Shown piece by piece: positions 15,853 to 49,657 of a DNA stretch of 64,000 nt. The number at the start of each line of letters is the position of its first letter. The first letter of the stretch is position 1. This DNA comes from Pseudoclavibacter caeni (GTDB lineage Bacteria; Actinomycetota; Actinomycetes; Actinomycetales; Microbacteriaceae): the NCBI RefSeq assembly GCF_008831125.1, contig NZ_WBKA01000001.1, positions 310,001 to 374,000 of the forward strand. The letters run 5' to 3'. The translations under genes were made by a program, and so were the position numbers. A model generated the notes under the pieces. It ran no database searches and was not told where the DNA came from. It worked only from the letters and a program-made list of their open reading frames with translations.

Positions 15853-19218
<3,366 letters not shown>

Positions 19219-30336: not shown

Positions 30337-31266
30337 TCAGCGCCGCCCTGATGTCTCGTGCGCGCCCTCGGTGACGACCTCGCGGGCGATGGCGGCAAAT
30401 GCCCGGGCCTTCGCGGTCATCGGCTCGTCGGCGCGGTAGGCGAGCACCACGTGCAGGGCGCGCACGGGCTCCATGATCGGCACAGCGGCGATCGGCAGCC
30501 CTGTGTAGGTCAGCTCGTTGGAGGGCACCTGGTTGAGGATGGTGTAGCCGTGCCCGCCGGCGACCATTCCACGCACGGTCTCGAAGCTCTCGAACTCGAA
30601 GGCGATGCGCGGGGTCACCCCGTTGGAGGCGAACGCGTTGAGGAAGTACTCCCGGCTGGCGGGCAGGTTGAGCAGGATGAACGGCTCGTCGGCGAGCTCG
30701 TGCAGCGAGATCATCGGCCGCGACGCCAGCGGGTGGTCGGGCGAGACGCCGATGTACGCCGGCCGTTGCTGCAGCGCCTCATAATGCACGGCCGGGTCGC
30801 TCGTGATGTCGTAGGTGAGCGCGACGTCGATCCGCCGTTCCTTGAGCGCCGTCAGCGTCTCCGGGCAGTCGAGCTCGGTCACCTGCGCGTGCAGCTGCGG
30901 GTGCCGGCCGGCCAGCCGCGCCCAGATGGGCGGCAGGTGGAACGGGGCTAGGGTCTTGAAACAGGCGGTCTTCAGCACCCCGCTCAGGGCATCCGGGCTC
31001 ACCGAGTCCACGGCGTCGCGGATCGAGGTGAGGATGTGCCGGGCGCGCACTAGCAGCTCCTGACCGTCCGCGGTCAGCTCGAGCCCCTTCGCCCGTCGTC
31101 GGATGAACAGCTGCGTGCCGAGTCGGGCCTCGAGCTGGCCGATGGCCGTCGAGACGGCGGACTGCGCGACGAACAGCTCGTCGGCGGCCGCGGTCATACT
31201 GCCCTGTTCCGCGGCGTGCACGAAGTAGATCAGCTGCGCGATCGAGATGCCGGGTGTGACGACCAT
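30337..31266 (-). CDS. LysR-family transcriptional regulator
   Basis: A 309-residue LTTR. The N-terminal winged helix-turn-helix (QLIYFVHAAEQGSMTAAADE, QSAVSTAIGQLEARLGTQLF, RRRAKGLELTADGQELL) is followed by a periplasmic-binding-like effector domain (about residues 90-300). ATG at 31266 has an excellent AGGAGG eight bases upstream. It is transcribed divergently from the flavin monooxygenase operon at 31629, and LTTRs commonly control the divergent operon and themselves. A near-perfect inverted repeat in the shared upstream region (31340-31380) is a candidate binding site. The effector is probably an intermediate of the adjacent pathway. Confidence 0.93.
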   Translation of the reverse strand: MVVTPGISIAQLIYFVHAAEQGSMTAAADELFVAQSAVSTAIGQLEARLGTQLFIRRRAKGLELTADGQELLVRARHILTSIRDAVDSVSPDALSGVLKTACFKTLAPFHLPPIWARLAGRHPQLHAQVTELDCPETLTALKERRIDVALTYDITSDPAVHYEALQQRPAYIGVSPDHPLASRPMISLHELADEPFILLNLPASREYFLNAFASNGVTPRIAFEFESFETVRGMVAGGHGYTILNQVPSNELTYTGLPIAAVPIMEPVRALHVVLAYRADEPMTAKARAFAAIAREVVTEGAHETSGRR

Positions 31267-31380: not shown

Positions 31381-31628
31381 CCACGGGTTCAGAACGCGCG
31401 GTTTTCCGGGGTTGTGTGACCGCATGGTGCCGATCACGTTACAGATGTGTTTCCCCGATGCCGATCGTCGACAACATCTGGATAACTGATGCGCTGCAGC
31501 AGCTGTCGTCAATTGCTTGTGCGACGAGCCCGCCCATACATTTGGCCCCAGCCGACGCCGGACGCGTCGCATCGTCACCGTTCCGAGGCCTGCCCCGGAA
31601 CGGCGCTTACCTCGGGAACGGAGTTGGA

Positions 31629-32954
31629 ATGTCGATTCAGCAGGAGACGGAAGTGCTCGTCGTCGGAGGCGGCCAAGCCGGTGTCGCGATGAGCGAACAC
31701 CTCACCAGGGCTGGCGTGCCCCACCTCGTGCTCGAGCGGGGCCGCATCGCCGAGCGGTGGCGCACCGGGCGGTGGGACTCCCTGGTCATGAACGGACCGG
31801 CCTGGCATGATCGCTTCCCCGGCATGGAACACCTCGACGCCGACCCCGACTCGTTCGTCCCCCATGAGCGAGTCGCCGAGTACTTCGAGGCCTACGCCCG
31901 CAAGTTCGACGAGCCGATCGTGTGCGGCGTCGAGGTGACCTCCGTCGAGCGCGACGAGGGCCGCCCGGGCTTCCACGTCGAGACCACGCAGGGCCCCGTC
32001 GACGCCAGATACGTCGTCGCGGCGACCGGCCCTTTCCAGGTGCCCTCAGTGCCCCCGATCGTGCCGACGAACGCCCCCGTGCACCAGATGCACTCGAGCG
32101 ATTACCGCAACCCCGACGAGCTCCCCGCCGGCGGCGTGCTCGTCGTCGGCTCCGGTTCCTCGGGCGTGCAGATCGCCGACGAACTGCACCGTTCCGGGCG
32201 CGACGTCTGGCTCGCCGTCAGCGATCACGAGCGGATGCCCCGAACCTACCGCGGCCTCGACTACTGCTGGTGGCTCGGCGTGCTCGGCATCTGGGAGGAC
32301 CCGACAGCACCGAAGGGCCGCGACGTGCAGCATCCCGCGCTCGCGGTCAGCGGCGCGTACGGCGGGCACACCATCGACTTCCGCGAGCTCGCCGACAGCG
32401 GCATCCACCTCGTCGGCCGGGTCGGCGGGTATGAGGACGGCGCGGTGCGCTTCGAGCCCGGTCTGCTGGAGACGATCGAACGCGGTGACGCGGGATACCT
32501 GCGTCTGCTCGACCAGGCGGACGCCTTCATCGAGCGCAACGGCATGGACCTGCCGGAGGAGCCCGAGGCACGCGCGTTCGGGTCGATGCCCGCCGAGGTC
32601 CTCGACCCCGTCGACCAGCTCGACCTGGCCGCCGCGGGCGTCACGACGATCATCTGGGCCACCGGCTTCCACGTCGACTACAGCTGGATTCACCTCGACA
32701 TCTTCGACGAGCAGGGGCGCCCCGTCCACGACCATGGCGTCTCCGCCGAGCCCGGCGTGTACTTCCTCGGCCTGCCCTGGTTGTCTGGCAAGGGCTCCAG
32801 CTTCATCTGGGGTGTGTGGCACGACGCCAAGTACATCGCCGACCAGATCATGATCCAGCGCAACTACGTCCACTACAGCGACCCCGCAGCCCACCGCGCC
32901 ACACCCGGCGCGGACGCATCGAACACCAGCACAGAGAGGGTGGCTTCACGATGA
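31629..32954 (+). CDS. Flavin-containing monooxygenase (CzcO-like)
   Basis: A 441-residue NAD(P)H- and FAD-dependent oxygenase. VLVVGGGQAGVAMSEHL is the FAD Rossmann motif at residue ~10. ERWRTGRWDSLVMNGPAWHD and ATGPFQVPSVPP are typical of the group. GVLVVGSGSSGVQIADELHR is the NADPH motif at ~175, and TTIIWATGFHVDYSWI is the final signature. It could N- or C-hydroxylate an amine or carry out a Baeyer-Villiger step. ATG at 31629 is used. The frame upstream has no homology. It is first in a five-gene operon in which each stop overlaps or touches the next start. Confidence 0.9.
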   Translation: MSIQQETEVLVVGGGQAGVAMSEHLTRAGVPHLVLERGRIAERWRTGRWDSLVMNGPAWHDRFPGMEHLDADPDSFVPHERVAEYFEAYARKFDEPIVCGVEVTSVERDEGRPGFHVETTQGPVDARYVVAATGPFQVPSVPPIVPTNAPVHQMHSSDYRNPDELPAGGVLVVGSGSSGVQIADELHRSGRDVWLAVSDHERMPRTYRGLDYCWWLGVLGIWEDPTAPKGRDVQHPALAVSGAYGGHTIDFRELADSGIHLVGRVGGYEDGAVRFEPGLLETIERGDAGYLRLLDQADAFIERNGMDLPEEPEARAFGSMPAEVLDPVDQLDLAAAGVTTIIWATGFHVDYSWIHLDIFDEQGRPVHDHGVSAEPGVYFLGLPWLSGKGSSFIWGVWHDAKYIADQIMIQRNYVHYSDPAAHRATPGADASNTSTERVASR

Positions 32955-33397
32955 CCGCACACACACGCATCCGTCCCTTCAACACGAAGGACACCTACCC
33001 GGAGCAGCACCTCGACAACGACCTCTGCCAGGCCGTCGTCGCCGGCGGGGTCGTCTGGCTGCGCGGCCAGATCGGCCAGGACCTGGAGACCCGCGAAAAC
33101 GTGGCCGTCGGCGACGCCCGCGGACAGGCCGAGAAGGCGATGTCGAACATCGCGATGCTGCTCGAAGAGGCTGGCAGCCGGCTCGAGGACATCGTCAAGA
33201 TCACGATCTATCTGGTTGACATCCGCTACCGCGAGGAGGTCTACCGGGTCGTGGGCCGCTGGCTGAAGGGGGTCTTCCCCGTCTCGACCGGCCTCGTCGT
33301 CTCCGCCCTGGCCCGCCCCGAGTGGCTTGTGGAGATCGATGCGACCGCGGTGATCAGCGACCCCGCGGACGACCACGAGGTCACGGCGGAGTCCTGA
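32951..33397 (+). CDS. Rid-family (YjgF/YER057c/UK114) protein lacking the catalytic arginine
   Basis: A 148-residue trimer-forming protein of the Rid superfamily. It has LCQAVVAGGVVWLRGQIGQD, MSNIAMLLEEAGSRLEDIVK, ITIYLVDIRYREEVYRVVGR and FPVSTGLVVSALARPEWLVE. Aligned with E. coli RidA, the deaminase Arg of the FPARS segment is replaced by Ser (FPVST), so classical 2-aminoacrylate deamination is unlikely. This is expected of the Rid4-Rid7 subgroups found in catabolic operons. It overlaps its upstream neighbour (ATGA) and touches its downstream neighbour (TGATG). Confidence 0.88.
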   Translation: MTAHTRIRPFNTKDTYPEQHLDNDLCQAVVAGGVVWLRGQIGQDLETRENVAVGDARGQAEKAMSNIAMLLEEAGSRLEDIVKITIYLVDIRYREEVYRVVGRWLKGVFPVSTGLVVSALARPEWLVEIDATAVISDPADDHEVTAES

Positions 33398-34071
33398 TGA
33401 CCTTCTCACTCGCCTTGACCGATCCGGCCACCGGGCGACTGGGGATGGCCGTCAGCTCCTCCAGCCCGGCCGTCGCCGCCCGCTGCGTCAACCTGCGAGC
33501 CGGGGTCGGCGCCGCCTCCTCGCAGAACGTGACCAATCCCGGGCTCGGGCCGCTCGCTCTCGGCCTGCTCGAGGCGGGCCTCACCCCCGACGAGGTCGCA
33601 GCCCGGCTGCCCGAGCATGACGAGCACATCGCCTACCGTCAGGTCACGGTGCTCGACGCGCAGGGCCGCTCGGCCGTGTTCGAGGGGACGGGGACGCTGG
33701 GCACGCACGCCTTCGCCCAGGGTCCCGGCGCGGTGGCCGCGGGCAACATGCTCGCCGACCCGACGGTGCCGCAGGCGATGGTGGACGCCGCCCTCGCCAG
33801 CACCGCGCCGCAGTTGGAGCAGCGCCTGCTCGCCGGCCTGGCCGCGGGCCTCGCCCGGGGCGGTGAGGCCGGCCCCGTGCGCTCCGCCGGCCTCGCGGTC
33901 GTCGCCGACCGCCCCTGGCTGCTGACCGACCTGCGGGTCGACGACGCCGACGAGCCGATCGCCGAGCTTAGCCGGCTGCTCGAGCTCTGGCTGCCACAGC
34001 GTGACGACTACGCCGTGCGTGCGGTGCACCCGGAGGCCGCACCGAGCTACGGGGTGCCCGGCGATGAGTGA
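33397..34071 (+). CDS. DUF1028 family (Ntn-hydrolase-like) protein
   Basis: A 224-residue protein with the DUF1028 hallmarks. MTFSLALTDPATGRLGMAVS starts it, then SSSPAVAARCVNLRAGVGAA, SQNVTNPGLGPLALGLLEAG, YRQVTVLDAQGRSAVFEGTG, AAGNMLADPTVPQAMVDA and RSAGLAVVADRPWLLTDLRV. The fold is related to Ntn hydrolases, and the family is repeatedly found with Rid proteins and M20 peptidases, but its reaction is not known to me. It is translationally coupled to both neighbours, so it probably hydrolyses or processes an amide intermediate of the same pathway. Confidence 0.88.
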   Translation: MTFSLALTDPATGRLGMAVSSSSPAVAARCVNLRAGVGAASSQNVTNPGLGPLALGLLEAGLTPDEVAARLPEHDEHIAYRQVTVLDAQGRSAVFEGTGTLGTHAFAQGPGAVAAGNMLADPTVPQAMVDAALASTAPQLEQRLLAGLAAGLARGGEAGPVRSAGLAVVADRPWLLTDLRVDDADEPIAELSRLLELWLPQRDDYAVRAVHPEAAPSYGVPGDE

Positions 34072-35230
34072 CCACACGGCGCCGTGCTCCCACGAGAGCC
34101 TGCGCGACCGGGTGCGCGACGCCGTGCGCGTCCTCTCCCCACGGCTTGTCGCCGTGCGGGACGCCCTGTACGCCCACCCCGAGACGAAATGGGAGGAACA
34201 CGACTCCGCGGCCCTGCTGGTCCGGGAACTCGAGCGCGGCGGCTTCGCCGTCACCACCGGGGTCGCCGGCCTGCCCACCGCGTTCGTCGGCACGGCGGGC
34301 CACGGCCCGATGCGGGTCGGGATCGTCCTCGAATACGACGCCCTGCCCGGCCTCGGCCACGCCTGCGGGCACGACATCATCGCCGCAGCCGGCCTCGGCG
34401 CGGCACTCGCTCTCGCCACGGTCGCCGACGACCTCGGCATCACCGTCGAGGCCATCGGCGCGCCAGCCGAGGAGGGCGGCGGCGGCAAGATCCTGATGCT
34501 CGACGCCGGCGTGTTCGACGGGCTCGAGCTGGCCATGATGATCCACCCCGGCCCCGTCGACGCGGGCTGGGCCAGGCCTCTCGCGGTCGCCCATCTCGAC
34601 GTGCGGTTCACCGGGCACGAGTCGCATGCGGCGGCCTACCCGGAGGAGGGCGTCAACGCGAGCGACGCGATGATCATCGCCCAGGTCGCCATCGGGATGC
34701 TCCGCCAGCAGTTGCCCGACGGCGTGCGGGTGCATGGCGTCGTGACGGAGGCCGGCACGGCCCCGAACGCCATCCCCGCGACGGCCGTGGGCCACTGGTA
34801 CGTCCGCGCCCGCACGTTGGAGGAGCTCGACGCGCTGTTCCCCCGGGTCATCCACTGCTTCGAGGCGGGCGCGCTCGCCACCGGATGCCGGTTCACATTC
34901 GAGGAGACGAGCCCCAGATACAGCGAGTTCCGCAACGACGAGCGGCTGCTGCGCCACTTCGCCGCCGAGGCGCGGGCGGCCGGCCGCGACCTCGATCTCG
35001 AGGAGCGTCGTCCCGGCGGCATGAACACCGCCTCCACCGACATGGGCAACGTCTCCCGCCGCATCCGGGCGATCCACCCGTATCTCGGCATCGATTCGCT
35101 GCCGGCGGTCAACCACCAGGCGGCCTTCGCCGACGCGACCATCACCCCCGCCGGCACACGGGCCGTGATCGACGGGGCGCTGCTCATGGCGCTGACCGTC
35201 ATCGACGACAGAGAGGACACCCGCGCATGA
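34064..35230 (+). CDS. M20D-family amidohydrolase
   Basis: A 388-residue dinuclear-metal hydrolase of the AbgB/IAA-amide-hydrolase class. ALYAHPETKWEEHDSAALLV, LEYDALPGLGHACGHDIIAA (metal ligands in GHACGHD), GAPAEEGGGGKILMLDAGVF (catalytic Glu pair) and MNTASTDMGNVSRRIRAIHP are the M20D signatures, with a small dimerisation domain between ~185 and 290. It would cleave an N-acyl or p-aminobenzoyl-type amide. ATG at 34064 overlaps the DUF1028 end by eight bases, and its stop overlaps the GMC gene by ATGA. Confidence 0.92.
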   Translation: MSDHTAPCSHESLRDRVRDAVRVLSPRLVAVRDALYAHPETKWEEHDSAALLVRELERGGFAVTTGVAGLPTAFVGTAGHGPMRVGIVLEYDALPGLGHACGHDIIAAAGLGAALALATVADDLGITVEAIGAPAEEGGGGKILMLDAGVFDGLELAMMIHPGPVDAGWARPLAVAHLDVRFTGHESHAAAYPEEGVNASDAMIIAQVAIGMLRQQLPDGVRVHGVVTEAGTAPNAIPATAVGHWYVRARTLEELDALFPRVIHCFEAGALATGCRFTFEETSPRYSEFRNDERLLRHFAAEARAAGRDLDLEERRPGGMNTASTDMGNVSRRIRAIHPYLGIDSLPAVNHQAAFADATITPAGTRAVIDGALLMALTVIDDREDTRA

Positions 35231-36798
35231 CCACCATCACGACCGCTGCGGACACGGAGGTGTTCGACCACCTCGTGATCGGCGGCGGGACGGCCGGCTG
35301 CATCGTCGCTGCCCGCCTGGCCGACCGCCCCGGGCATCCCCGCGTCGCGCTCGTCGAATGGGGCCCGGACGACGCCGCCGAGCCCCGGGCCCAGACGATC
35401 CGCCGCTGGGACGAGATGGTCGACAGCGAGTACGCCGTCCAGCACCACAGCGTGCCCCAGACACGTGGCAACAGCCATATCGACCACACCCGTCTGCACA
35501 TCCTCGGCGGCTGCTCGACGGCCAACACGATGATCTCGTGGCTGCCGTTCCGCGGCGACCTGCTGGAGTGGGAGCGCCGCGGCGCGGACGGCTGGGGGCC
35601 GGACGACCTGCTGCCGTACGCGAGCCGGCTGCGCACGCGGATCTCCGTCATCCCGCCCACAGACCAGAACCCGAGGCTCGCGCGGGTGATCGACGCCGCA
35701 ACCGCCGCCCTCGACCTCGAGCGGGTCATCGAGTGGAACGACCACGACTACCGGCCCGGTGCCGGGTTCTTCGAGATCGGGTACATCCCCGAGACGAACC
35801 AGCGCTCGAGCGGCTCGAACGCCTACCGAGACCTGCTCACCCGGGCGAGCCTGCGCGGCGACCTCACCCTGCTCACCGGCCACCGCGCGCTGCGACTGAC
35901 CATGACCGACGCGACGGTCACCGGCGCGGTGATCGCCGACGCGGACGGGGCCGAGTGGTGCATCCGCGCCCGCACCACGGTGCTCGCCGCCGGCGCCTTC
36001 GAGACCCCGCGCCTGCTGATGCTCTCCGGCATCGGCGACCCGGACGTGCTGCGCGCCGCCGGTGTGCCCGTGCGCGTGCCGCTGCACGGCGTGGGCCGGG
36101 GGCTGCAGGATCACGCCGAGGGCATCGTCGTGTGGGAGACGCGCGGCCCGGTCGAGGCGCCCAGCGCGACCGGATGGGACGCGGGCTACCTGTGGGGCGA
36201 CGACCACGCCGACGACCCCGCGCTGGCGGACCTGCCGCCGGTGCCGCAGGTCGCCACGCACATCCCCCGCGAACCCTGGGTCGAGCAGCTCCTCCGCGCC
36301 GGCGTCGCCCTGCCGGAGCACATCGCCGGCGTCGCCCCGAACGTGGCGCGCCCGCGCAGCCGCGGGCGCGTGTGGATCGACTCGGCCGACCCCGACGCCG
36401 AGCTGCGGATCGACTTCCGGTACTTTACCGACCCAGACGGCCATGACGAGCAGGTGCTCGTCCAGGGCGTGCGCAACGCCCGTCAGGTGGCCCGAGCCGA
36501 CCCGTTCGCCGCCGAGATCGTGCGCGAGGTGTTCCCCGGGCCCGATGTCGTCTCGGACGCCGACCTCTCGGCCGCCGAGCGTGCGGTGCACCAGACCGTC
36601 TACCATCCCTGCGGCACCTGCCGGATCGGCGCCGACGACGATGCCGACAGCGTGCTCGACTCATCGCTGCGGGTGCGCGGCACCACCGGTCTGTGGGTCG
36701 CTGACGCCTCTGCGTTCCCGACGATCACGTCGATCAACCCTGTGATCACGATCATGCTGCTCGCGGAGCGCGCCGCCGATCTCATCCCGCGTGTCTGA
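35227..36798 (+). CDS. GMC-family FAD oxidoreductase (choline-dehydrogenase-like)
   Basis: A 523-residue GMC enzyme. The ADP-binding motif HLVIGGGTAGCIVAARLADR is at residue ~14. LHILGGCSTANTMISW is GMC signature 1, GAFETPRLLMLSGIG is signature 2, and the C-terminal YHPCGTCRIGADDDADSVLD and ASAFPTITSINPVITIMLLA carry the active-site His-Asn pair. Members oxidise alcohols with FAD. As last gene of the monooxygenase-Rid-DUF1028-M20D operon it probably oxidises an alcohol released by the hydrolase or present on the substrate. Confidence 0.92.
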   Translation: MTTITTAADTEVFDHLVIGGGTAGCIVAARLADRPGHPRVALVEWGPDDAAEPRAQTIRRWDEMVDSEYAVQHHSVPQTRGNSHIDHTRLHILGGCSTANTMISWLPFRGDLLEWERRGADGWGPDDLLPYASRLRTRISVIPPTDQNPRLARVIDAATAALDLERVIEWNDHDYRPGAGFFEIGYIPETNQRSSGSNAYRDLLTRASLRGDLTLLTGHRALRLTMTDATVTGAVIADADGAEWCIRARTTVLAAGAFETPRLLMLSGIGDPDVLRAAGVPVRVPLHGVGRGLQDHAEGIVVWETRGPVEAPSATGWDAGYLWGDDHADDPALADLPPVPQVATHIPREPWVEQLLRAGVALPEHIAGVAPNVARPRSRGRVWIDSADPDAELRIDFRYFTDPDGHDEQVLVQGVRNARQVARADPFAAEIVREVFPGPDVVSDADLSAAERAVHQTVYHPCGTCRIGADDDADSVLDSSLRVRGTTGLWVADASAFPTITSINPVITIMLLAERAADLIPRV

Positions 36799-36812
36799 AC
36801 GCCTTCGCAGCG

Positions 36813-36853
36813 CCTTCGTGGGGGCGGCCGGGACCCGGCCCCCGCGAAGAAGG
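36813..36853. terminator. Bidirectional terminator-like hairpin
   Basis: CCTTCGTGGGGGC and the following GGCCGGG pair with CCGG and CCCCCGCGAAG further right, giving a long GC-rich stem between the convergent GMC gene and the OCD-family gene. There are a few mismatches near the loop and a short T-containing run (GGTCTTCTC) after it. Confidence 0.45.
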
Positions 36854-36937
36854 TCTTCTCGCACTCAACCGGAGGAGACCGAGCCCGCCGGACGGCCGTC
36901 CGCAGCCTTCCACAGGCCATCCGTGAAACCGGTGCGG

Positions 36938-38110
36938 TCAGCGCAGGGCCGCGTGCTCCCAGACCGGAAGAGTGACCCCGAGCCCGAGCTCGCAGGCCCG
37001 ACGGTAGAGCTCCGTCGCCCAGGCCACGTCCTCGACGGGCAGGCCGCCGGTGCCGAAGAACACCACCGCGTCGTCCGCTCGGCGCACCCCGCCGGTGAGC
37101 ACGTCGCCCAAGGAGACCGGATGCACCGCCTCCCCGCGGTCGCGTCGCTCGACGAGCTGCACGCCGAAGAGATCGCGGATGGACTCGCGCGGCGCGGGGA
37201 TCTCGAGCATCCACTGCTCGTACAGGCGCACACTGTCGACGATCGTCACCTGCCCCCAGGCCTCCTCGTCAAGCGCGATGTCGGCGGGCAGGCACACCAG
37301 CGCGCCGGGACGCAGCGCCCGGGTGGGCAGCAGGGGCGGCTCGTCGCCGGAGATGGCCACGCTGACGATGTCGGCGTCGGTCACGGCCTCCTCGATCGAG
37401 TCGACGGGGACGATCCGGGGCGTCCGCGACGCACCCAGTCGCTCGGCGACGGCGCGGGAGAAACGCTCGACGCCCGCCTGCGAGCGGCCGCGCACCATGA
37501 TCCGCTCGATGCCGGGCCGGGCGACGAGGTAGGCCTCCGCCGCCGCGATGTTGATGGCGCCGGGGCCGATGATCGCGAGCACCCGGGCCTCCTCGGGGGC
37601 GAGCACTCGTGCAGCGACGCCCAGTACCCCGGCGGTGCGGAAGGCGCTCACCAGGTTGCCGGACATGATGCAGCGGGGCACGCCCGTGTCTTTGTCGTGC
37701 AGTGCGATCATGTGGATCGAGCGGGGCAGCCCCTTCGCCCGGTTGGCCACGTTCGAGGCGTACCACTTCAGCCCGAGCATGTCGAAGCGGCCGCCCACGT
37801 ACGCGGGCATCGCCGCGAACCGTCGGTCCGGGCCGTCGAGAGGCATGCCAGGGAATGGGCTGGAGGCGGGGAATCCCATCTCCAGCCCGTGCGAGGAGCC
37901 CAGTTCCCCGGCCATCACGCAGTCGCCTGCGGCGAGCAGCCGGAACGTCTCCTCGAGCACATCCATGCAGGCGGCCATGTCCAGCGCGCCGGCGGCGACG
38001 AGCGACGGCTCGTCGAGATAGCGGAAGGCCATCGCGGCGCCGTCCCCCGCGCCGGTGCCCTCGGCCGTGCCGGTCGCGCGGCCCGTCGTGGGTTCCTCCC
38101 CGCCGGTCAC
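36938..38110 (-). CDS. Ornithine cyclodeaminase / mu-crystallin family protein (copy A)
   Basis: A 390-residue NAD(P)-binding protein. FRYLDEPSLVAAGALDMAAC starts the fold. DRRFAAMPAYVGGRFDMLGL with the catalytic-site Lys of GLKWYASN, SGNLVSAFRTAGVLGVAARV, LAIIGPGAINIAAAEAYLVA (dinucleotide motif), GRSQAGVERFSRAVAERL and FFGTGGLPVEDVAWATELYR follow. Family members reduce ketimines or cyclodeaminate amino acids. GTG at 38110 overlaps the stop of the ABC ATPase (GTGA), so it is the last gene of the importer operon and may act on the imported compound. It is clearly paralogous to 57507-58709. Confidence 0.9.
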   Translation of the reverse strand: MTGGEEPTTGRATGTAEGTGAGDGAAMAFRYLDEPSLVAAGALDMAACMDVLEETFRLLAAGDCVMAGELGSSHGLEMGFPASSPFPGMPLDGPDRRFAAMPAYVGGRFDMLGLKWYASNVANRAKGLPRSIHMIALHDKDTGVPRCIMSGNLVSAFRTAGVLGVAARVLAPEEARVLAIIGPGAINIAAAEAYLVARPGIERIMVRGRSQAGVERFSRAVAERLGASRTPRIVPVDSIEEAVTDADIVSVAISGDEPPLLPTRALRPGALVCLPADIALDEEAWGQVTIVDSVRLYEQWMLEIPAPRESIRDLFGVQLVERRDRGEAVHPVSLGDVLTGGVRRADDAVVFFGTGGLPVEDVAWATELYRRACELGLGVTLPVWEHAALR

Positions 38111-38889
38111 TGGAACTCGCTCAGGATGTCGGCGTACAGCTCGCGGAAGTGATCGCTCATGATGATCTCCTTGCCGCGCGGCCGCGGCAGGTCGATGCGC
38201 ACCTCGCGCTTGACGGTGCCCGGATGCGACGACATGATCACGACCCGGTCCGAGGTGAACACGGCCTCCTCGATGTCGTGGGTGATGAGCATGACCGTGA
38301 GCTTGTGCTGCTCCCAGATACGGGTCAGCAGCTCCTGCATGCTGCGCCGGGTCAGCGCGTCAAGCGCGCCGAACGGCTCGTCCATCAGCAGCACCTTCGG
38401 GCGGTACGACAGGGAGCGGGCGAGGGCGACACGCTGCTGCATCCCGCCGGAGAGCTGGCTGGGGAACTTGTCCTCGAAGCCCTCGAGACCCACCAGGTGG
38501 AGGTGCTCGTCGGCGATCTCGCGGGCCCGACCGCGGTCGAGCCCGGGCTCGCCGCGCAGCGCGAACAGGACGTTGTCGCGCACGGTCAGCCAGGGCAGCA
38601 GCGTGGCCGACTGGAAGACGACCCCTCGGTCGCGGCCTGGCCCGGTGATGGGTGATCCGTTGATCTCGATGACGCCGTCCGAGGCCTCCTCCAGCCCGGC
38701 GATCATCGACAGCAGCGTGGACTTGCCACAGCCCGACCGGCCGACGACCGAGACGAACTCCTCACGGTGCAGATCGATCGTGACATCGTGCACGGCGGTG
38801 ACCTCGCCGAAGTGTTTGGTGACGTTCTCCACGTGCACCACGGACGGGGTGGTCCCGGTGCGCGGCGAGGCGGCGGCGGCGGAGTTCAT
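38107..38889 (-). CDS. ABC importer ATPase, nitrate/sulfonate/taurine family (SsuB-like)
   Basis: A 260-residue ATPase. Walker A SVVGRSGCGKSTLLSMI is at ~49, Q-loop VVFQSATLLPWLTVRDNVLF at ~93, signature QLSGGMQQRVALARSL at ~145, Walker B VLLMDEPFGALDALTR at ~168 and LITHDIEEAVFTSDRVVIM at ~200. The sequence around the Q-loop and D-loop is typical of SsuB/TauB/NrtD. The start at 38889 overlaps the permease stop (ATGA). It powers the importer made with the permease and the binding protein upstream. Confidence 0.94.
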   Translation of the reverse strand: MNSAAAASPRTGTTPSVVHVENVTKHFGEVTAVHDVTIDLHREEFVSVVGRSGCGKSTLLSMIAGLEEASDGVIEINGSPITGPGRDRGVVFQSATLLPWLTVRDNVLFALRGEPGLDRGRAREIADEHLHLVGLEGFEDKFPSQLSGGMQQRVALARSLSYRPKVLLMDEPFGALDALTRRSMQELLTRIWEQHKLTVMLITHDIEEAVFTSDRVVIMSSHPGTVKREVRIDLPRPRGKEIIMSDHFRELYADILSEFQ

Positions 38890-39707
38890 GAGCGTCCTTT
38901 CAGGTAGCGGAACATGCGCCGGCCGATCGCGCGCATGATCTGGTCGAAGACGAGGCCGATGACGCCCAGAACGATCACGTAGCCGATGATCACGTCCGTG
39001 GCGAGGAAGCGCTGCGCCTGAGTGATGCGGTAACCCATGCCGCTGGTGGCCGCCACGAGCTCCGCGACGACGAGCCAGGTCCAGGCCCAGCCGAGGCAGA
39101 CGCGCAGGGCGTCCCACACCCGGGGCATCGCCGCCGGGAGGACGATCCGCAGCAGGATCTGCCCCCGGCTCATGCCCAGGGTGGCCCCGAGGTTCTGGTA
39201 GCTCTTGGGCACCTGACGTACCGCGTCGGAGATCATGAGCACCTCCTGGAAGAAGGTGCCGAGCCAGATGATGAGGAACTTCTGCAGGTCGTTCGTGCCG
39301 ACCCAGAGGATCGTCAGAGGCACGAACGCCACGACCGGCATGTAGCGCACGAAGTCGAGGAACGGCTCGATGAACGCCTCGATGCGGGGGTCGGAGGCGG
39401 TGAGGATGCCCAGTGGGATGGCCATGACCGTCGCGACGATGTAGCCGACCATCACCCGGTACGCGCTCACCGCGACATCCGACCACAGCTGACCGTCAGC
39501 CGCGCTCTCGACGAGGGCGCCGAGCACCTTGGTGGGTGACGGCAGGAACATCGGTTTGACCAGCCCCGTCGCCGTGATGCCCGCCCACAGCAGCAGCACC
39601 ACGATGAACGAGAGCACCGCGATCTCGATGTATCCCCGCCGGCTCAGCGGTCTCGGGAAGACGGAGCGCCAGCGCCGTCCTCCTCTGGTCGTCACTGTTC
39701 CGGTCAT
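38886..39707 (-). CDS. ABC importer permease (SsuC-like)
   Basis: A 273-residue permease with six predicted helices. The BPD_transp_1 coupling motif appears as YQNLGATLGMSRGQILLRIV followed by LPAAMPRVWDALRVCLGWAW. WLVVAELVAATSGMGYRI is typical of the SsuC/TauC class. ATG at 39707 is preferred because AGAAAGGA lies ten bases upstream. A longer frame starting at ATG 39794 adds 29 hydrophilic residues with a weak SD. It lies between the binding protein and the ATPase in the operon. Confidence 0.92.
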   Translation of the reverse strand: MTGTVTTRGGRRWRSVFPRPLSRRGYIEIAVLSFIVVLLLWAGITATGLVKPMFLPSPTKVLGALVESAADGQLWSDVAVSAYRVMVGYIVATVMAIPLGILTASDPRIEAFIEPFLDFVRYMPVVAFVPLTILWVGTNDLQKFLIIWLGTFFQEVLMISDAVRQVPKSYQNLGATLGMSRGQILLRIVLPAAMPRVWDALRVCLGWAWTWLVVAELVAATSGMGYRITQAQRFLATDVIIGYVIVLGVIGLVFDQIMRAIGRRMFRYLKGRS

Positions 39708-39804
39708 GCGTCCGGTCCTTTCTGTGCCATCGTGGTCATGTCGTTCGTGTTGGGCTCGGTCCGATGCGGGCGTGCGCACGGCGGGGCTGGTCATGCCGGT
39801 CGGT

Positions 39805-40818
39805 TCACTTCACGAAGCGGGTGTCGACCAGGGAGGTGAGATCCTGTTCCTTGTCGATGATGCCGGCGTCGAGCGCGCCCTTCTGCACGTTCGGCAGCAC
39901 GTTCTCCAGGTAGTCGCCGCCGAGCTGCGTCTTGTTGTCCTCTGCGGTGAAGTACTTCACACCGTCGAACGCCGAGGTCAGGCTCGAGGGGTCGGAGCCG
40001 ATGTTCTCGGCGATGATCTGCTGGGCCTCCTCGGTGTCGGACTCGTAGAAGTCCACAGCGGGGCCCCAGGCGTTGACGACCTTCTGCACTGCGTCGGGCT
40101 TCTCCTCCATGGCCTTCTTCGTCACGAACAGCACGTCGGAGATCAGGCCGGGCTCGTGGTCGGCCGTGTACAGCTTCTTGATGTCGCTGTTCTGGCTGAT
40201 GGAGTCGGAGATGTACGGCTCGTAGGTGACCGCGGCGTCTACCCGGCCGGCCGACAGCGCGACGGCGGCGTCGGAGGGGGACATCGGCACCGGGGTGACG
40301 TCGCTCATGGACATGCCCGCCTCGGTGAGGGCGTGGTCGAGGAGCAGGTTGCTGACCGATCCCTCCTCGAACGCGACCTGTTTGCCCTTCAGATCGGCGA
40401 TCGAGTCGATGCCCGGGCCGGCGAGCACCGCGTCGGCGGTCATGGAGGTGTCGAGCAGTGTGACGATGTAGCCCTCCTGCCCCTGCTGCAGCCACTGGAG
40501 CACGGTGTGCGACGCGGCGTTGGCCACGTCGATGTCGCCGGAGCCGAGCCCCGCGGTGGTGTCGGTCGCGTCGTCGAAGCTCGTCATGTTGACGGTGACG
40601 CCCTGGTCGGCGAAGTAGCCCTTCTCCTGGGCGATGTACCAGGGTCCGTAGCCGAGCCAGGGCTCGGTGGACATGTTGATCGTGTCGGTCGCGGAGGTCT
40701 GGGCGTCATCGCCGGAGGTGGAGCAGCCGGCGAGAGCGGCCGCGGCTGTGGCGATGCCGATGGCGCCCGCGGCGAGGCGGGTCCAGGTGCGGTGCGGTGA
40801 ACGAACTCGGGTGAGCAT
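39805..40818 (-). CDS. ABC importer substrate-binding lipoprotein (NMT1/SsuA-like)
   Basis: A 337-residue lipoprotein. The signal peptide ends in the lipobox AALAGCST (Cys near residue 32). The mature domain begins INMSTEPWLGYGPWYIAQEK and GYFADQGVTVNMTSF, typical of the NMT1/THI5 and SsuA/TauA binding proteins. It continues SGDIDVANAASHTVLQWLQQ, ALSAGRVDAAVTYEPYISDS and LISDVLFVTKKAMEEKPDAV. ATG at 40818 follows GAGGGAGAA. It is first in the importer operon. The ligand is not predictable, although the operon tail (OCD family) and the neighbouring oxidative operon suggest a nitrogenous organic compound. Confidence 0.92.
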   Translation of the reverse strand: MLTRVRSPHRTWTRLAAGAIGIATAAAALAGCSTSGDDAQTSATDTINMSTEPWLGYGPWYIAQEKGYFADQGVTVNMTSFDDATDTTAGLGSGDIDVANAASHTVLQWLQQGQEGYIVTLLDTSMTADAVLAGPGIDSIADLKGKQVAFEEGSVSNLLLDHALTEAGMSMSDVTPVPMSPSDAAVALSAGRVDAAVTYEPYISDSISQNSDIKKLYTADHEPGLISDVLFVTKKAMEEKPDAVQKVVNAWGPAVDFYESDTEEAQQIIAENIGSDPSSLTSAFDGVKYFTAEDNKTQLGGDYLENVLPNVQKGALDAGIIDKEQDLTSLVDTRFVK

Positions 40819-41295
40819 GCGATTCTCCCTCTCTGCGGGGTGGGGCGGCCGGTTCTGTCGGCGCCAGCGGATGCCTCTCAGAATTCAGCCGTCGGCGGGG
40901 GCGTGCAAATAGGAAGTCTGCGCCCCCATCATCTGGAATTCAGATGTCAGGGCGGATTTCATGCAGAAGAAATGAATCTGTAACAGGCGCGCAACGCGAG
41001 GTCCTCCCCGACCTCCTCGGGAGCGGGATCCGTTCACATGATCGATACACAGAGGGCTTCGCGATGCGGTGCATCTGCGATTTCGATCCACTTCGCGCAC
41101 CGTGTGCCGCATAGTCTTCGAGACAGCAGACCGGGCGGGCCGGCAGGTGCGCGGCCATGGCCGGCCGGATGCGAGCGTCGCCCGCCTCGGCCCGGGTGAC
41201 TGAAGAGACCGGCCGGATGGCGCTTCCAGCCGTTCATGGGCCTCAGACCGGGAGCCCAGCGCCTCAGAACGGGGCCCGGGGAAGGAGACGACGGG
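40819..41295. promoter_or_regulatory. Divergent intergenic region with small palindromes
   Basis: This 477-bp region separates the importer operon from the amidohydrolase, and no gene was found in it. It contains the palindrome ATCTGGAATTCAGAT (40931-40945), a related CAGAATTCAG at about 40877, and TTCAT/ATGAA inverted arms (40958-40976). These sit within 60-160 bp upstream of the importer and are candidates for regulator binding. Local AT content is higher than in the surrounding genes. Confidence 0.4.
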
Positions 41296-42933
41296 ATGAC
41301 GGATACGCGAGAGCTGACGATCGGGAACGCCGATCTGTACCTTGGGCATGGGGTGTGGCGGCGGGGAAGCCTTCGCTGCGTCGACGGGGTGATCGTCGAG
41401 GTCAGCCCGGAGCGGTTCCCCCGCGGCGGCGGGCGACACGTCGACGCCCGAGGGGCGAGCGTGCTGCCGGGCTTCCAGGACGCCCACGTGCATCCGGAGC
41501 ACGGCGGCTCCGGCCTGCTCGGCATCGACCTGACCGCGGTGCACGACGCCGACCGCTACCTCGACCTCGTGCGGGCGTATGCACGCAGCCACCCCGCCGA
41601 AGCCGTCTTGATCGGCAACGGCTGGTACGGAGACCTCTTCCCGGGTGGCATGCCCACCGCGGCGTTCCTGGACCGCGCGGAGGCGGAGCGCCCCGTGCTG
41701 CTCAACGGCCACGACGGACACAGTCTGTGGGCGAACTCGGCGGCGCTGGCCGCCGCGAGCATCACGGCCGACACACCCGACCCGGCTGACGGGAGGGTGC
41801 TGCGCGACGCCGACGGGATCCCGACCGGGGTGCTGCTCGACGGGGCCATGCAGCTGGTGGCGGGCCTGCGCCCCGAGAAGACCCGGCGCACCCTCACAGA
41901 CGGCCTGCTCGCCGCGCAGGCGTTCCTGCACTCGCTCGGCGTCACCGCCTGGGCGGACGCGATGGTGGGCGACTCCGAGCTCTCCGCAGACCCGTTCGAG
42001 GCCTACCTCGAGCTCGAGCGCGCGGGGCTGCTCACCGGTCGCGTCGTGCTCGGGCAGTGGTGGGAACGCCGAGCGGGCCTCGAGCAGATCGAGCGCTTCG
42101 AGCAGCGTCGCGAGGCGGTGCGAGACCTGCCGCATCTGAGCGCCGGCATGGTGAAGATCATGCAGGACGGCATGGTCGAGAACCACACCGCGGCGATGAT
42201 CGACCCCTACGCCGACATCGACGACACAGGCGCGTCCTTCATCGATCCACAGCAGCTCGTGCGGATCGCTGCGGAGCTCGACGCGCGCGGCTTCGACCTG
42301 CACTTCCACGCCTGCGGCGACCGCGCCGTCCGCGAGTGTCTGGATGCGGTCGAGGCACTGCGCGCCCGCGGCGGCGGGGCCGGCCGGCGCCACCAGATCG
42401 CGCACGTCGACGTGGTGCACCCTGACGACCTGCCCCGGTTCGCGAAACTCGACGTCACCGCGAACATCGAGATGCTCTGGGCCCGCCGGGACAAGGAGAT
42501 GCTCGAGCGCAAGCTCCCCCAGCTCGGCGCCGACCGTGAACCCTGGCAGTTCCCGTTCGGGTCGCTCGCCCGTGCCGGGGCGCGGCTTGCCGCCGGCAGC
42601 GACTGGCCGGTGTCGGATCCGAACCCGCTGTGGGCCATCCACACGGGGATGCGGCGGACGGCCCCCAGCACGGACGTGCACGCGATCGGCGACGAGGCGC
42701 GCACCCATCCGCTCGAGCGACAGGAGGGCCTCGACTTCACGACCGCCCTCGATGCCTTCCTGACCGGCGCCGCCTGGGTGAACCGGCTCGACGACGTCGC
42801 CGGACGCCTCGCTCCCGGGTTGCAGGGCGACCTCGTGGTGCTCGACGCGAACCTGCGCACCGCGCCCGACCTGGCCCGGGTCGGCGTGGCCGAGACGTTC
42901 GTCGCCGGCCACAGCGTCCATCACGGGGAGTGA
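41296..42933 (+). CDS. Amidohydrolase-3 family protein (YtcJ-like)
   Basis: A 545-residue metal-dependent hydrolase of the amidohydrolase superfamily. GASVLPGFQDAHVHPEHGGS carries the H-x-H metal ligands (near residue 72). NGHDGHSLWANSAALAAASI, GMVKIMQDGMVENHTAAMID (bridging region), FHACGDRAVRECLDAVEAL, HQIAHVDVVHPDDLPRFAKL and LAAGSDWPVSDPNPLWAI (final Asp) complete the TIM-barrel site. It is cytoplasmic, with no signal peptide. ATG at 41296 follows GAAGGAG. It is divergent from the importer operon, so it may hydrolyse an imported amide or a degradation product. The substrate cannot be named. Confidence 0.9.
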   Translation: MTDTRELTIGNADLYLGHGVWRRGSLRCVDGVIVEVSPERFPRGGGRHVDARGASVLPGFQDAHVHPEHGGSGLLGIDLTAVHDADRYLDLVRAYARSHPAEAVLIGNGWYGDLFPGGMPTAAFLDRAEAERPVLLNGHDGHSLWANSAALAAASITADTPDPADGRVLRDADGIPTGVLLDGAMQLVAGLRPEKTRRTLTDGLLAAQAFLHSLGVTAWADAMVGDSELSADPFEAYLELERAGLLTGRVVLGQWWERRAGLEQIERFEQRREAVRDLPHLSAGMVKIMQDGMVENHTAAMIDPYADIDDTGASFIDPQQLVRIAAELDARGFDLHFHACGDRAVRECLDAVEALRARGGGAGRRHQIAHVDVVHPDDLPRFAKLDVTANIEMLWARRDKEMLERKLPQLGADREPWQFPFGSLARAGARLAAGSDWPVSDPNPLWAIHTGMRRTAPSTDVHAIGDEARTHPLERQEGLDFTTALDAFLTGAAWVNRLDDVAGRLAPGLQGDLVVLDANLRTAPDLARVGVAETFVAGHSVHHGE

Positions 42934-45523: not shown

Positions 45524-46782
45524 TGACCGCATCTCCCGCCTCTCGTCCCGAGCCCGCCGAGTCGCCTGCCACCCCTGCTGCCCCTGCCGCCCCCGCTGCT
45601 GCCCCTGCTGCCCCGCAGCCCACCCTGCAGCCCGCCCTCGACTTCGACCACATCGTCATTGGCGGAGGAGCGATGGGCTCCGCCGCAGCCTGGCGCCTCG
45701 CGCGGGCCGGTCGCTCCGTGCTGCTGCTCGAGCGCTTCACGCAGGTGCATCTGAACGGCTCGTCGCATGGCCCCAGCCGCAACTTCAACATGGCCTCGTA
45801 CACCGAGGGCGACTACCTCGACCTGGTCGCCGAGGCCGGCCGTATCTGGCACGAGCTCGAGGACGAGACCGGCGAGCGCCTCCTCGACGTCGTCGGGCTC
45901 GTCGACCACGGCGCCGGCGAGTTCGACGGGCACGACGAGCTGCTGCGCGCCCACGGCTTCCAGGCCGAGACGCTGCGTCCCGAGGAGGCCCACGAGCGCT
46001 GGCCCGGCATCCGCTTCGACACCCGCGTGCTCCACGCCCCCGAGGGCGGGCGCCTGAACCCCGACCGCGCGATCCCCGCGATGCAGGCCGCCGCGGCCCG
46101 ACACGACGCGGTGCTCCGCCACGAGACCCCGGCGCGCGCGATCGAGCCGTTCGACGACGGCTCCGGCGTGCGCGTCGTCACCGACGCGGGATCCGCCACC
46201 GCACACACCGTGATCGTGACCGCCGGGGCCTGGGCGCGCGTCCTGCTCGACGGACTCGTCGACCTGCCGCCCCTGCGCGTCACCCAGGAACAGCCGGCGC
46301 ACTTCGCGCTCGCGGACGGCGGCGACGGCCTCGACCCGGCGACACAGGAGCGCTGGCCCGGCTTCAATCACATCCCCGCGCCGGGTGACGCGCGCACTGC
46401 CTGGTGGCGCGGCGAGGTGTACGGGATGCTCACCCCGGGCGAGGGCGTGAAGGTCGGCTGGCACGGCGCGGGGCCTGTCGTCGATCCCGATCATCGGGAC
46501 TTCGCGCCCGAGCCCGCGCAGATGGACGACCTGCGGCGCTACGTGCGCGAGTGGCTGCCCGGCGTCGACCCCGACCGGTTCGAGCCGATCAGCTGCCTGT
46601 ACACCACGACGCCGGACGAGGACTTCGTCGTCGACCGGCGCGGCCCGATCGTGGTCGGCGCCGGGTTCAGCGGGCACGGGTTCAAGTTCACCCCGGCGAT
46701 CGGGCGGATGCTGGCCGAGCTGGCGACGGATCCCGACGCCCGTGCCCTGCCGCGGTTCGCGCTGGGGCGCTTCGGCCTGTAG
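45523..46782 (+). CDS. FAD-dependent amine oxidoreductase (sarcosine oxidase / SolA-like)
   Basis: A 419-residue enzyme. After an Ala/Pro-rich tail of about 35 residues comes the FAD motif FDHIVIGGGAMGSAAAWRLA, then RSVLLLERFTQVHLNGSSHG (covalent-flavin class, His in SSHG region), AARHDAVLRHETPARAIEPF and HTVIVTAGAWARVLL. The C-terminal GPIVVGAGFSGHGFKFTPAI is typical of monomeric sarcosine and N-methyltryptophan oxidases. It oxidises a secondary amine to an imine. It is divergent from the phosphatase, and its start is predicted to be leaderless. Confidence 0.9.
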   Translation: MTASPASRPEPAESPATPAAPAAPAAAPAAPQPTLQPALDFDHIVIGGGAMGSAAAWRLARAGRSVLLLERFTQVHLNGSSHGPSRNFNMASYTEGDYLDLVAEAGRIWHELEDETGERLLDVVGLVDHGAGEFDGHDELLRAHGFQAETLRPEEAHERWPGIRFDTRVLHAPEGGRLNPDRAIPAMQAAAARHDAVLRHETPARAIEPFDDGSGVRVVTDAGSATAHTVIVTAGAWARVLLDGLVDLPPLRVTQEQPAHFALADGGDGLDPATQERWPGFNHIPAPGDARTAWWRGEVYGMLTPGEGVKVGWHGAGPVVDPDHRDFAPEPAQMDDLRRYVREWLPGVDPDRFEPISCLYTTTPDEDFVVDRRGPIVVGAGFSGHGFKFTPAIGRMLAELATDPDARALPRFALGRFGL

Positions 46783-49509: not shown

Positions 49510-49542
49510 GCCCCCATCATCCTCCTGCGCGGCCCGTGTCGG

Positions 49543-49606
49543 TGTGCATAGACCTGCCGATTGTGCATGGATCTGCCAGTGGGTGGCATGTTCGTGCACG
49601 GGCCGG
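49543..49606. repeat. Intergenic palindromic repeat, copy 2 (degenerate)
   Basis: TGTGCATAGACCTGCCGAT is followed by GTGCATGGATCTGCCAGTGG and GTGGCATGTTCGTGCACGGG. The same nested arrangement as at 56791 is recognisable but with more mismatches. It lies in the 148-bp gap between the two class IV PLP genes. Confidence 0.5.
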
Positions 49607-49657
49607 GTGCCTGGGGAAGTCCGGCCGAGGTCGGGCCAGCCCCGCCCCCGCTGCCGA

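Follow-up and report, generated by a model that had tools for sequence, protein, structure and literature searches.

We found that a LysR regulator and four enzyme genes in a 64,000-nucleotide stretch of Pseudoclavibacter caeni DNA (the whole stretch analysed, hereafter the window) correspond by order and families to hinK and hinFLHG. The enzyme genes encode an FAD monooxygenase (FMO), a Rid protein, a DUF1028 protein and an M20 amidohydrolase. According to portions of two published accounts, hinFLHG and hinK serve the conversion of imidazole-4-acetate to aspartate in the histamine catabolism of Pseudomonas putida U and Pseudomonas aeruginosa (PMC8231116, PMC6467879). Judged by sequence, the core of this island has thus already been described. 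We give about an even chance to the reading that the whole island is an actinobacterial imidazole-degradation regulon, in which an importer, a YtcJ-type amidohydrolase and a GMC oxidoreductase are switched together with the hin core, the GMC enzyme offering an extra entry whose most likely starting compound would be an imidazole alcohol, for example histaminol.

The original prediction, made for an interval (31629-42933) that leaves the LysR gene just outside, was a catabolic island for an N-containing heteroaromatic compound. This was right. It had also held that no known named pathway fits, which is contradicted by the core, whose gene order and protein families are those of hinF-hinL-hinH-hinG with hinK. 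A characterised operon of the same order does exist for LysR-FMO-Rid-DUF1028-M20, whereas the GMC, SsuABC, OCD and YtcJ genes lie outside the set given in those portions of the published accounts. As a whole, the interpretation is partly supported.

Gene organization of the island

Gene starts were refined with coding-bias gene calls and by reading of the DNA. The HinK-like LysR gene (30337-31266, minus strand; Pfam LysR) is adjacent to and divergent from the first of five plus-strand genes. These encode a hinF-like FMO (31629-32954), a hinL-like Rid protein (32951-33397; PF01042, 78.5 bits), a hinH-like DUF1028 protein (33397-34071; PF06267, 205 bits; start taken from the DNA reading), an M20D amidohydrolase at the hinG position (34064-35230; TIGR01891, 189 bits, above the cut-off of 153.75) and a choline-oxidase-like GMC oxidoreductase (35227-36798; PF00732/PF05199). 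Successive overlaps of 4, 1, 8 and 4 bases join the five genes into a chain, as had been claimed. Facing them on the minus strand is an operon of an ssuA-like binding lipoprotein (39805-40818; TIGR01728), an ssuC-like ABC permease (38886-39794; PF00528; start uncertain, 39617 by gene call), an ssuB-like ABC ATPase (38107-38889; PF00005; from the gene call) and an OCD/mu-crystallin family enzyme (36938-38110; PF02423, 165.6 bits; PRK06199, 358.4 bits against a cut-off of 362), whose real start may be near 38029. A YtcJ-type amidohydrolase (41236-42933, plus strand, starting at 41236 or 41299; PF07969, Amidohydro_3, 254.9 bits) closes the island. All the genes named earlier (LysR, FAD oxidoreductase, Rid, DUF1028, M20, GMC, OCD, the ABC genes with an SsuA-type protein, and Amidohydro_3) are thereby confirmed in family and position.

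The hin-like core and its relatives

The P. aeruginosa gene numbers run in the order hinF-hinL-hinH-hinG, and HinK responds to imidazoleacetate (PMC8231116). HinF is likewise given as an FAD monooxygenase, HinL as an enamine deaminase, HinH and HinG as amidases and HinI as an aspartate ammonia-lyase, and a Brevibacterium with Hin homologues is said there to grow on histamine (PMC6467879). The window has the same order of FAD monooxygenase, Rid, DUF1028 and amidohydrolase, where gene order and naming lead us to equate HinH with DUF1028. The FMO falls under the curated cut-off of the MSMEG_0569 flavoprotein family (TIGR04046, 362.6 versus 498.35 bits), is 53-66% identical among linked loci, and is predicted to be an imidazoleacetate 4-monooxygenase (EC 1.14.13.5). 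The Rid protein, which lacks the usual Arg, shows 61-92% identity among linked loci, and the DUF1028 gene is the sole PF06267 match in the genome. The M20D enzyme, a predicted N-formylaspartate deformylase, is 51-60% identical to three other actinobacterial linked M20 proteins and matches the ArgE-type M20 of a proteobacterial (Pantoea) hin cluster at a BLAST E value of only 0.42; the hinG position thus appears to be kept with a different M20 subfamily.

The adjacent, divergent LysR is of the HinK type. Its best PDB sequence matches are 6m5f (164.6 bits), with the title 'HinK ... Pseudomonas aeruginosa', and 3fzv (164.5 bits), the next scoring 96.9. In the VIA comparison, 6m5f (Z 27.1, 33% identity, 279 aligned, rmsd 14.3) ties with 3fzv (Z 26.9) and with 2ql3 (Z 27.0), which covers just the C-terminal domain.

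The aspartate ammonia-lyase (AspA) of the pathway has a relative at C1:376.3-377.7 kb, 60% identical to a hin-linked AspA. On the entry side, no match to copper amine oxidase (CuAO) turned up in the genome, and a histamine dehydrogenase (HADH) query retrieved nothing better than an OYE-type gene at 33%, besides weaker fragments. The 362-residue OYE-type gene, taken up as the window's 'HADH' candidate, was removed by the identity filter. The histamine aminotransferase query (AT3) has a best own-genome match of 38%, which could be a candidate.

We compared 112 loci: the window, 80 collected by DUF1028 and 31 by FMO, so both genes are partly selected for in the counts below. Of 39 regions retrieved, eight duplicated DNA already in the set, and rows were left out for 8 of 81 loci in the first analysis and 6 of 112 in the later one. 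Relatives of FMO, Rid and DUF1028 occur together in 106/112 loci, which speaks for a coherent island instead of a chance grouping, as the original prediction had it. M20 is present in 102 and LysR in 104 of these 106 core loci. The F-L-H-G genes lie on one strand in 52 of them; in another 50, F is separate from L-H-G or divergent. The core lies near HADH, CuAO, aminotransferase, aldehyde dehydrogenase (ALDH) and AspA genes; an amine-oxidising enzyme (HADH, CuAO or AT3) is found in 64/106 core loci, ALDH in 73 and AspA in 33. Three Pseudoclavibacter carry an ALDH between M20 and GMC. The window has none there, and its genome has five ALDHs elsewhere, 31-40% alike. An apparent avoidance between GMC and amine oxidases in the first set (both in 3 loci, GMC alone in 11, an amine oxidase alone in 41 and neither in 21; p 0.005, by Fisher tests that ignore the relatedness of loci) was dropped when 30 new loci gave 9/4/11/6 (p 1.0).

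A common 16-base pattern, the importer and the GMC oxidoreductase

Two putative operators match the pattern GTTACNNATNNNTTTC: GTTACAGATGTGTTTC (31438-31453, plus strand), 175 bases upstream of hinF, and GTTACAGATTCATTTC (40969-40984, minus strand), between ssuA and ytcJ. They are the only matches in the 2.06-Mb genome, and the two in the window compare with 0.02 expected, the copies having been first spotted by eye in promoter sequences and tested afterwards. Since the pattern occurs only at both operons, these look co-regulated, in line with the earlier claim that they belong together, and the LysR may bind it. The pattern is also found at the place before hinF in loci L032, L033 and L034, the last from the collection strain Pseudoclavibacter soli DSM 23366, which carries the same cluster, and at the ssuA-ytcJ place in L034, L180, L185, L203 and L206. 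A looser form (A to W, introduced after L180 and L185) gave 13 matches over 2.18 Mb of loci, 12 of them at the two places, and its reversed control gave 0. An unbiased best-16-mer comparison chose the pattern in L180 (15/16) and L185 (16/16) and other matches in the window, L034, L202, L203 and L206; when the promoters were searched for palindromes, none was common to them. The pattern is missing upstream of hinF in L202, L203 and L206, from L202 entirely, and from the remaining hin loci, most of which have LysRs 39-46% like that of the window. The AspA gene has no copy nearby.

The importer and the GMC gene also travel together. GMC is present in 10/10 SsuC loci versus 17/96 loci without SsuC, and YtcJ adjoins SsuABC in L034 and in five loci from outside the genus. 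The combination of SsuABC, GMC and hin core is found again in four other Microbacteriaceae genera, and in Proteobacteria with another GMC subfamily, 32-39% alike to the first. This second subfamily stands with hin-type genes in 9/9 proteobacterial regions examined, among 22 records listed; its carriers include Klebsiella and Acetobacter plasmids. We put at somewhat below even the fuller proposal that the LysR regulon is a new hin entry route in which an imidazole alcohol (histaminol or a YtcJ-opened conjugate) is imported and oxidised, and which would have arisen at least two times, with two GMC subfamilies, in Actinobacteria and Proteobacteria. 

One alternative is an ordinary hin pathway, in which the core degrades imidazoleacetate (and histamine where an amine oxidase exists), while GMC, SsuABC, YtcJ and OCD merely lie nearby and serve other functions. 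The core identity is strong, and in 79/106 core loci the stretch covered contains no GMC of these types. We still find this unlikely, given the 4-base overlap of M20 and GMC, the pattern common to both operons, and the hin neighbourhoods of Ideonella and Rhizobium lusitanum, where SsuABC-type genes also run directly into GMC. 

Alternatively, SsuABC might import imidazoleacetate or histamine, with OCD and a DAO-type flavoenzyme supplying the missing amine-oxidising step. HADH, CuAO or AT3 is found in 1/8 OCD-bearing core loci versus 63/98 without OCD (p 0.006, ignoring relatedness, with 4/8 OCD-bearing loci from one genus), and OCD occurs with Rid and an FAD oxidase in 3/3 plasmid regions examined. 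However, no DAO lies beside OCD in the window operon (the nearest is at 45673-46782), OCD is missing from 5/6 SsuC loci that belong to other genera (L063, among the six, is truncated by a contig end), and 'tyramine oxidase subunit B' is no more than an annotation name. This possibility is thus doubtful, and the 'ketimine reduction' formerly ascribed to OCD stays unsupported.

A further reading, a little less probable again, is that the GMC acts as a choline oxidase, yields glycine betaine and sits in the operon by chance. In the PDB it matches choline oxidase best (2jbv, 308 bits), and the equivalents of W61, E312, W331, H351, Y465, H466 and N510 are kept, in what we take to be the choline oxidase numbering, with His99 presumably binding FAD. 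These catalytic and cage residues being kept, choline could be a substrate. On the other hand, the window GMC has Ala at the covalent-FAD His99 position, which is A, G or T in 13/13 actinobacterial hin-linked GMCs with the region aligned (a 14th, from L032, is a partial call outside this count). H99 is kept in one relative, from S. chartreusis (L117), where no hin genes were found within 9 kb. The second, distinct GMC subfamily likewise joins hin genes. We predict that the GMC is an imidazole-alcohol oxidase. The published hin pathway leaves YtcJ and OCD unexplained, which would favour the breakdown of a different N-heteroaromatic or N-acyl compound with no relation to histamine, but this is very improbable given the core's linkage to HADH and CuAO genes in relatives and a LysR whose best match is HinK.

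Proposed pathway and comparison with known systems

Our preferred reading, the imidazole regulon, builds on gene families, order and linkage, the common pattern, the AspA relative and the lack of a CuAO or HADH match. HinF would oxygenate imidazole-4-acetate; HinH and HinL may then open and hydrolyse the ring product to N-formylaspartate, in whichever division of steps; the M20D enzyme would deformylate this to aspartate, and aspartate ammonia-lyase would give fumarate. The HinK-like LysR would turn the genes on, probably upon sensing imidazoleacetate. By extension, we infer that SsuABC, YtcJ and GMC are made under the same switch. SsuABC may take up an imidazole compound, YtcJ could free or open a conjugate of it, and GMC would oxidise an imidazole alcohol to imidazoleacetate by way of the aldehyde, our best guess for the alcohol being imidazole-4-ethanol (histaminol). 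SsuA passes its family cut-off (166.6 versus 163.5 bits), which is uninformative on the ligand, and PDB sequence searches with SsuA and YtcJ gave matches too weak to indicate ligand or substrate.

Yeasts convert histamine to histaminol. If the GMC takes histaminol, plasmids of vinegar and fly-gut Acetobacter and of human-sputum Klebsiella would encode a route for a product of fermentation by yeasts. Our PMC searches found no paper on a hin core with a choline-oxidase-like GMC, SsuABC importer and YtcJ, none in PMC for 'DUF1028', and, in titles and abstract starts among the matches listed, no bacterial use of imidazole-ethanol. A gene set annotated as DUF1028, Rid and 'GMC oxidoreductase' gains a pathway, and the island suggests that one histamine-type pathway has multiple entry points as well as an importer of the binding-protein type. 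The roles of DUF1028 and the unusual Rid in opening imidazolone acetate become testable.

The island resembles Pseudomonas hinFLHG and hinK in the F-L-H-G order, the named families, the HinK-type LysR and the AspA relative. It differs in its M20D enzyme (a proteobacterial cluster has an ArgE-type M20), in the GMC within the operon, in SsuABC and YtcJ (and OCD) seemingly under the same switch, and in a genome without a CuAO or HADH match or a clear histamine aminotransferase. The putative histamine pathway of a cheese Brevibacterium, also an actinobacterium, shares homologues of HinL, HinH and HinF, whose locus tags there are neighbours; as far as portions of that account go, it differs in a HinC-like aminotransferase, a HinD-like aldehyde dehydrogenase and histamine-oxidase homologues, and its HinG homologue has a distant locus tag (PMC6467879). 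Brevibacterium celere (L106) has a linked M20 of the window's type (53%). Pimelobacter simplex (L093) encodes, about 5.6 kb from hinF, a protein nearly identical to histamine dehydrogenase 3k30 (1503 bits, 690/690 residues), whereas the best match in the window's genome is the OYE-type gene. With choline oxidase (2jbv), finally, the GMC shares family and catalytic and cage residues, and differs in lacking the FAD-anchoring His and in its linkage to hin genes.

The hin-type core

Pfam and NCBIfam scans found all of the genes named in the original prediction. The island contains a LysR gene (30337-31266, minus strand); genes for a Pyr_redox/FMO-like flavoprotein, Rid, DUF1028, M20 and GMC proteins (31629-36798, plus strand), which are joined, as predicted, by overlaps of 4, 1, 8 and 4 bases in both the gene calls and the DNA itself; genes for an OCD family enzyme and an SsuABC-type importer, that is, an ABC ATPase (SsuB), a permease (SsuC) and an SsuA-type binding protein (36938-40818, minus strand); and a YtcJ-like Amidohydro_3 gene ending at 42933 (plus strand). 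The genome carrying the window comprises 2.06 Mb in 11 contigs. The genus is Pseudoclavibacter (family Microbacteriaceae), because the DNA of three comparison loci (L032, L033 and L034) is that of three genomes placed in the genus of the window.

We collected 80 loci from named genomes by a DUF1028 protein search (actinobacterial by title except L075 and L095), and relatives of LysR, FMO, Rid, DUF1028 and M20 are clustered in most of them. The FMO matches in 398 genomes of the family form two groups: an upper one with 55-100% identity (41 matches, from 40 genomes) and the rest at 38-43%. Around the upper-group matches, 39 regions were fetched (the window's own left out), 8 of which are DNA already among the loci. 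The final set thus has 112 loci (80 DUF1028-collected, the window and 31 FMO-collected). FMO, Rid and DUF1028 are found together in 106 of these (the core loci), with M20 in 102 and LysR in 104 of the 106. FMO, Rid, DUF1028 and M20 (the hinF, hinL, hinH and hinG positions) lie in this order on one strand in 52 core loci, and in 50 further ones the last three do so with FMO apart or divergent. The core also exists on plasmids of Pantoea, Klebsiella, Acetobacter, Ideonella, Rhizobium and others, and the proteobacterial M20 is ArgE-type in the annotated plasmid cores that show one.

The neighbours of the core point to histamine. They include aldehyde dehydrogenase (ALDH), class III aminotransferase and aspartate ammonia-lyase genes and NCS1, MFS and APC permeases. 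A copper amine oxidase is near the core in L113 and, in an earlier tally, in 12 of 73 core loci; the same tally gave 11 of 73 for a 690-residue protein. In Pimelobacter simplex (L093), this protein matches histamine dehydrogenase (HADH; PDB 3k30) along its full length (690 of 690 residues, 1503 bits), and its gene is about 5.6 kb from hinF. The window LysR matches two PDB chains with 164.6 and 164.5 bits (next, 96.9). One of them, titled 'Crystal structure of HinK', ranks first in the structural comparison, almost level with two others, with an rmsd of 14.3 in whole-chain superposition. Passages in PMC8231116 describe the conversion of imidazole-4-acetate to aspartate via hinFLHG in P. putida U and P. 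aeruginosa (PA5393, PA5392, PA5391 and PA5390, respectively, in PAO1), imidazoleacetate being the signal answered by the LysR protein HinK. According to parts of PMC6467879, HinF is an FAD monooxygenase (EC 1.14.13.5), HinL is an enamine deaminase, HinH is an amidase, as is HinG (EC 3.5.1.8), and HinI is an aspartate ammonia-lyase; three Brevibacterium strains with homologues can use histamine as their sole carbon source, although the authors caution that a link to the genes needs proof. We equate HinH with the DUF1028 protein on the basis of gene order and naming rather than a Pseudomonas sequence. The original prediction that no named pathway matches the set does not hold for the core, which by families and gene order is an actinobacterial form of the known imidazoleacetate pathway, a hinFLHG-type set with a HinK-like LysR; gene families, their order and their linkage give this lower pathway good support.

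At residue 112 of the window Rid (32951-33397), which we take to be equivalent to the catalytic Arg105 of RidA, 81 of 84 hin-linked Rid proteins carry Ser, two carry Cys and one carries Phe; an Arg and a Trp located 10-13 residues downstream are conserved. Because the catalytic-Arg position is replaced, this 'enamine deaminase', judged from sequence, may differ from RidA in mechanism. The M20 enzymes at the HinG position in actinobacteria (34064-35230; Brevibacterium celere, L106) and in Pantoea (L112) are unrelated by BLAST. The Brevibacterium HinG homologue listed in PMC6467879 has a distant locus tag, and a linked M20D enzyme such as that of L106 may be a stronger candidate.

A DUF1028 match exists in 263 plasmid records, 105 of them from Klebsiella; two Klebsiella records that were read have a complete hin core with an NCS1 permease, GMC and ALDH.

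A shared 16-base pattern

The island is real and conserved, and it is probably co-regulated. GTTAC-N7-TTTC occurs twice in the window, in the LysR/hinF and ssuA/ytcJ gaps, versus 0.02 expected. In the genome, GTTACNNATNNNTTTC occurs exactly twice, at these gaps (control, 0), and relaxing the pattern to GTTWC brings in a single unrelated place. Across 2.18 Mb of loci, the relaxed form matches 13 times, 12 of them at the LysR/hinF or ssuA/ytcJ place, versus 0 for the reversed pattern. The pattern was first spotted by eye in promoters, and the window and Pseudoclavibacter are not blind tests. Both places have it in the window, in L034 and in L180 and L185, which came from an unbiased comparison that chose other matches in the window and four others; the two L185 copies are identical across 16 bases. 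L032 and L033 have it before hinF, their stretches ending short of the ssuA/ytcJ place. L203 and L206, which came from the widened pattern, have it between ssuA and ytcJ only, L202 at neither place, and the remaining hin loci scanned lack it. We infer that a HinK-like LysR binds this putative operator.

The putative alcohol oxidase and the importer

The three Pseudoclavibacter loci have, in this order, LysR, FMO, Rid, DUF1028, M20, ALDH and GMC, with SsuABC-OCD facing; the ALDH between M20 and GMC is absent from the window. An extra FMO-like gene lies between GMC and OCD in L032 (16189-17625) and L033 (15226-16653), and not in L034 or the window. Among PDB entries, the window GMC is closest to choline oxidase (308 bits), an enzyme that takes its alcohol through two oxidations to the acid. 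The presumed equivalents of the choline oxidase catalytic and cage residues are kept in the window GMC. At the presumed position of the FAD-binding His, all 13 hin-linked actinobacterial GMCs that could be aligned carry Ala, Gly or Thr; His is retained in one relative without hin genes nearby.

Of the 106 core loci, 27 have a GMC of these types nearby. The proteobacterial hin-linked GMC forms a second subfamily, 32-39% identical to the actinobacterial one, and is found at 53.8% identity or more in 22 plasmid records among those listed (next listed, at most 45.3%). Hin-type genes are present in all nine regions read from these records (two from Klebsiella, two of 15 from Acetobacter, and those of Ideonella, Salipiger, Rhizobium lusitanum, Paracoccus seriniphilus and Haematobacter), with only HADH, ArgE and LysR within 10 kb in P. 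seriniphilus and the core about 18 kb from GMC in Ideonella. Around a 44% GMC on a P. aeruginosa plasmid, hin genes were not found in the 13.6 kb read.

Ten of the 106 core loci have an SsuC of the window type (at least 55%), and GMC is present in all ten versus 17 of the 96 others. Four of the ten are from this genus, one is from Corynebacterium (L063, truncated at a contig end) and the remaining five (L180, L185, L202, L203 and L206) represent four further genera of the family. In these five, SsuA, SsuC and YtcJ are 53-59%, 71-74% and 50-55% identical to those of the window, YtcJ is again divergent from ssuA, and three have the order ssuA-ssuC-ssuB-GMC. Ideonella and R. lusitanum also have this order, with SsuA about 30% identical. 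GMC is present in 13 of 25 YtcJ loci versus 14 of the 81 others (p 0.001, uncorrected for relatedness); the second set shows the trend (9 of 11), and the first falls short of significance (4 of 14, p 0.28). Paracoccus and Haematobacter have distant YtcJ-like genes (28-29%) that overlap GMC or lie directly against it, and YtcJ relatives are also found away from hin genes, next to an NCS1 or ABC importer. OCD could be an amine-side enzyme: an amine-oxidising enzyme is found in one of eight OCD loci, half of which are one genus, versus 63 of 98 others, and Rid and an FAD oxidase accompany OCD elsewhere in 3 of 3 regions read. These three regions are plasmid loci (L134, L135 and L136) with a recurring trio of OCD, Rid and FAD oxidase ('tyramine oxidase subunit B'), and two of them have an APC permease.

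Proposed upper pathway and predicted substrate

An aspartate ammonia-lyase relative, 60% identical to a hin-linked one, is encoded at 376.3-377.7 kb of the contig, about 30 kb from the GMC gene. Neither a copper amine oxidase nor an HADH was found in the genome, the HADH search yielding nothing closer than a 33% OYE-type match. A hin-linked aminotransferase query has a best match of 38%, so the genome may yet encode a histamine aminotransferase, and five ALDHs are 31-40% like that of the Pseudoclavibacter hin loci. These searches indicate that the lower pathway is present, without a clear enzyme for histamine itself.

Other features were observed nearby. Pieces of class III aminotransferase sequence lie about 40 kb from the island (contig positions 384835-385610), and one of them contains an internal TGA. 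In the window, two adjacent class IV aminotransferase genes (48526-50539, minus strand) look like a duplication, and an ABC ATPase (22667-23908, minus strand) has an S-layer-homology match in its C-terminal part, unexpected for such a transporter. One gene (17743-19218, plus strand) fuses dTDP-4-dehydrorhamnose epimerase and RmlD domains; the tRNA-Val called by ARAGORN within it on the opposite strand (18496-18585) is probably spurious.

In our reading, an importer and a predicted alcohol oxidase have been joined at least twice to the imidazoleacetate pathway, which suggests an imidazole alcohol as the substrate of the upper part; so joined, they would bring in and oxidise such an alcohol. Against this stands choline as the GMC substrate, for which the kept cage residues speak. 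An anti-association of GMC with amine oxidases, considered as an argument for the extension, did not repeat in the second locus set. Histaminol would be the best candidate, as the imidazole alcohol that leads to imidazoleacetate; it is made by yeasts in wine, according to a passage in PMC10534683. The prediction is testable, and the extension would represent a new form of the known imidazoleacetate pathway.
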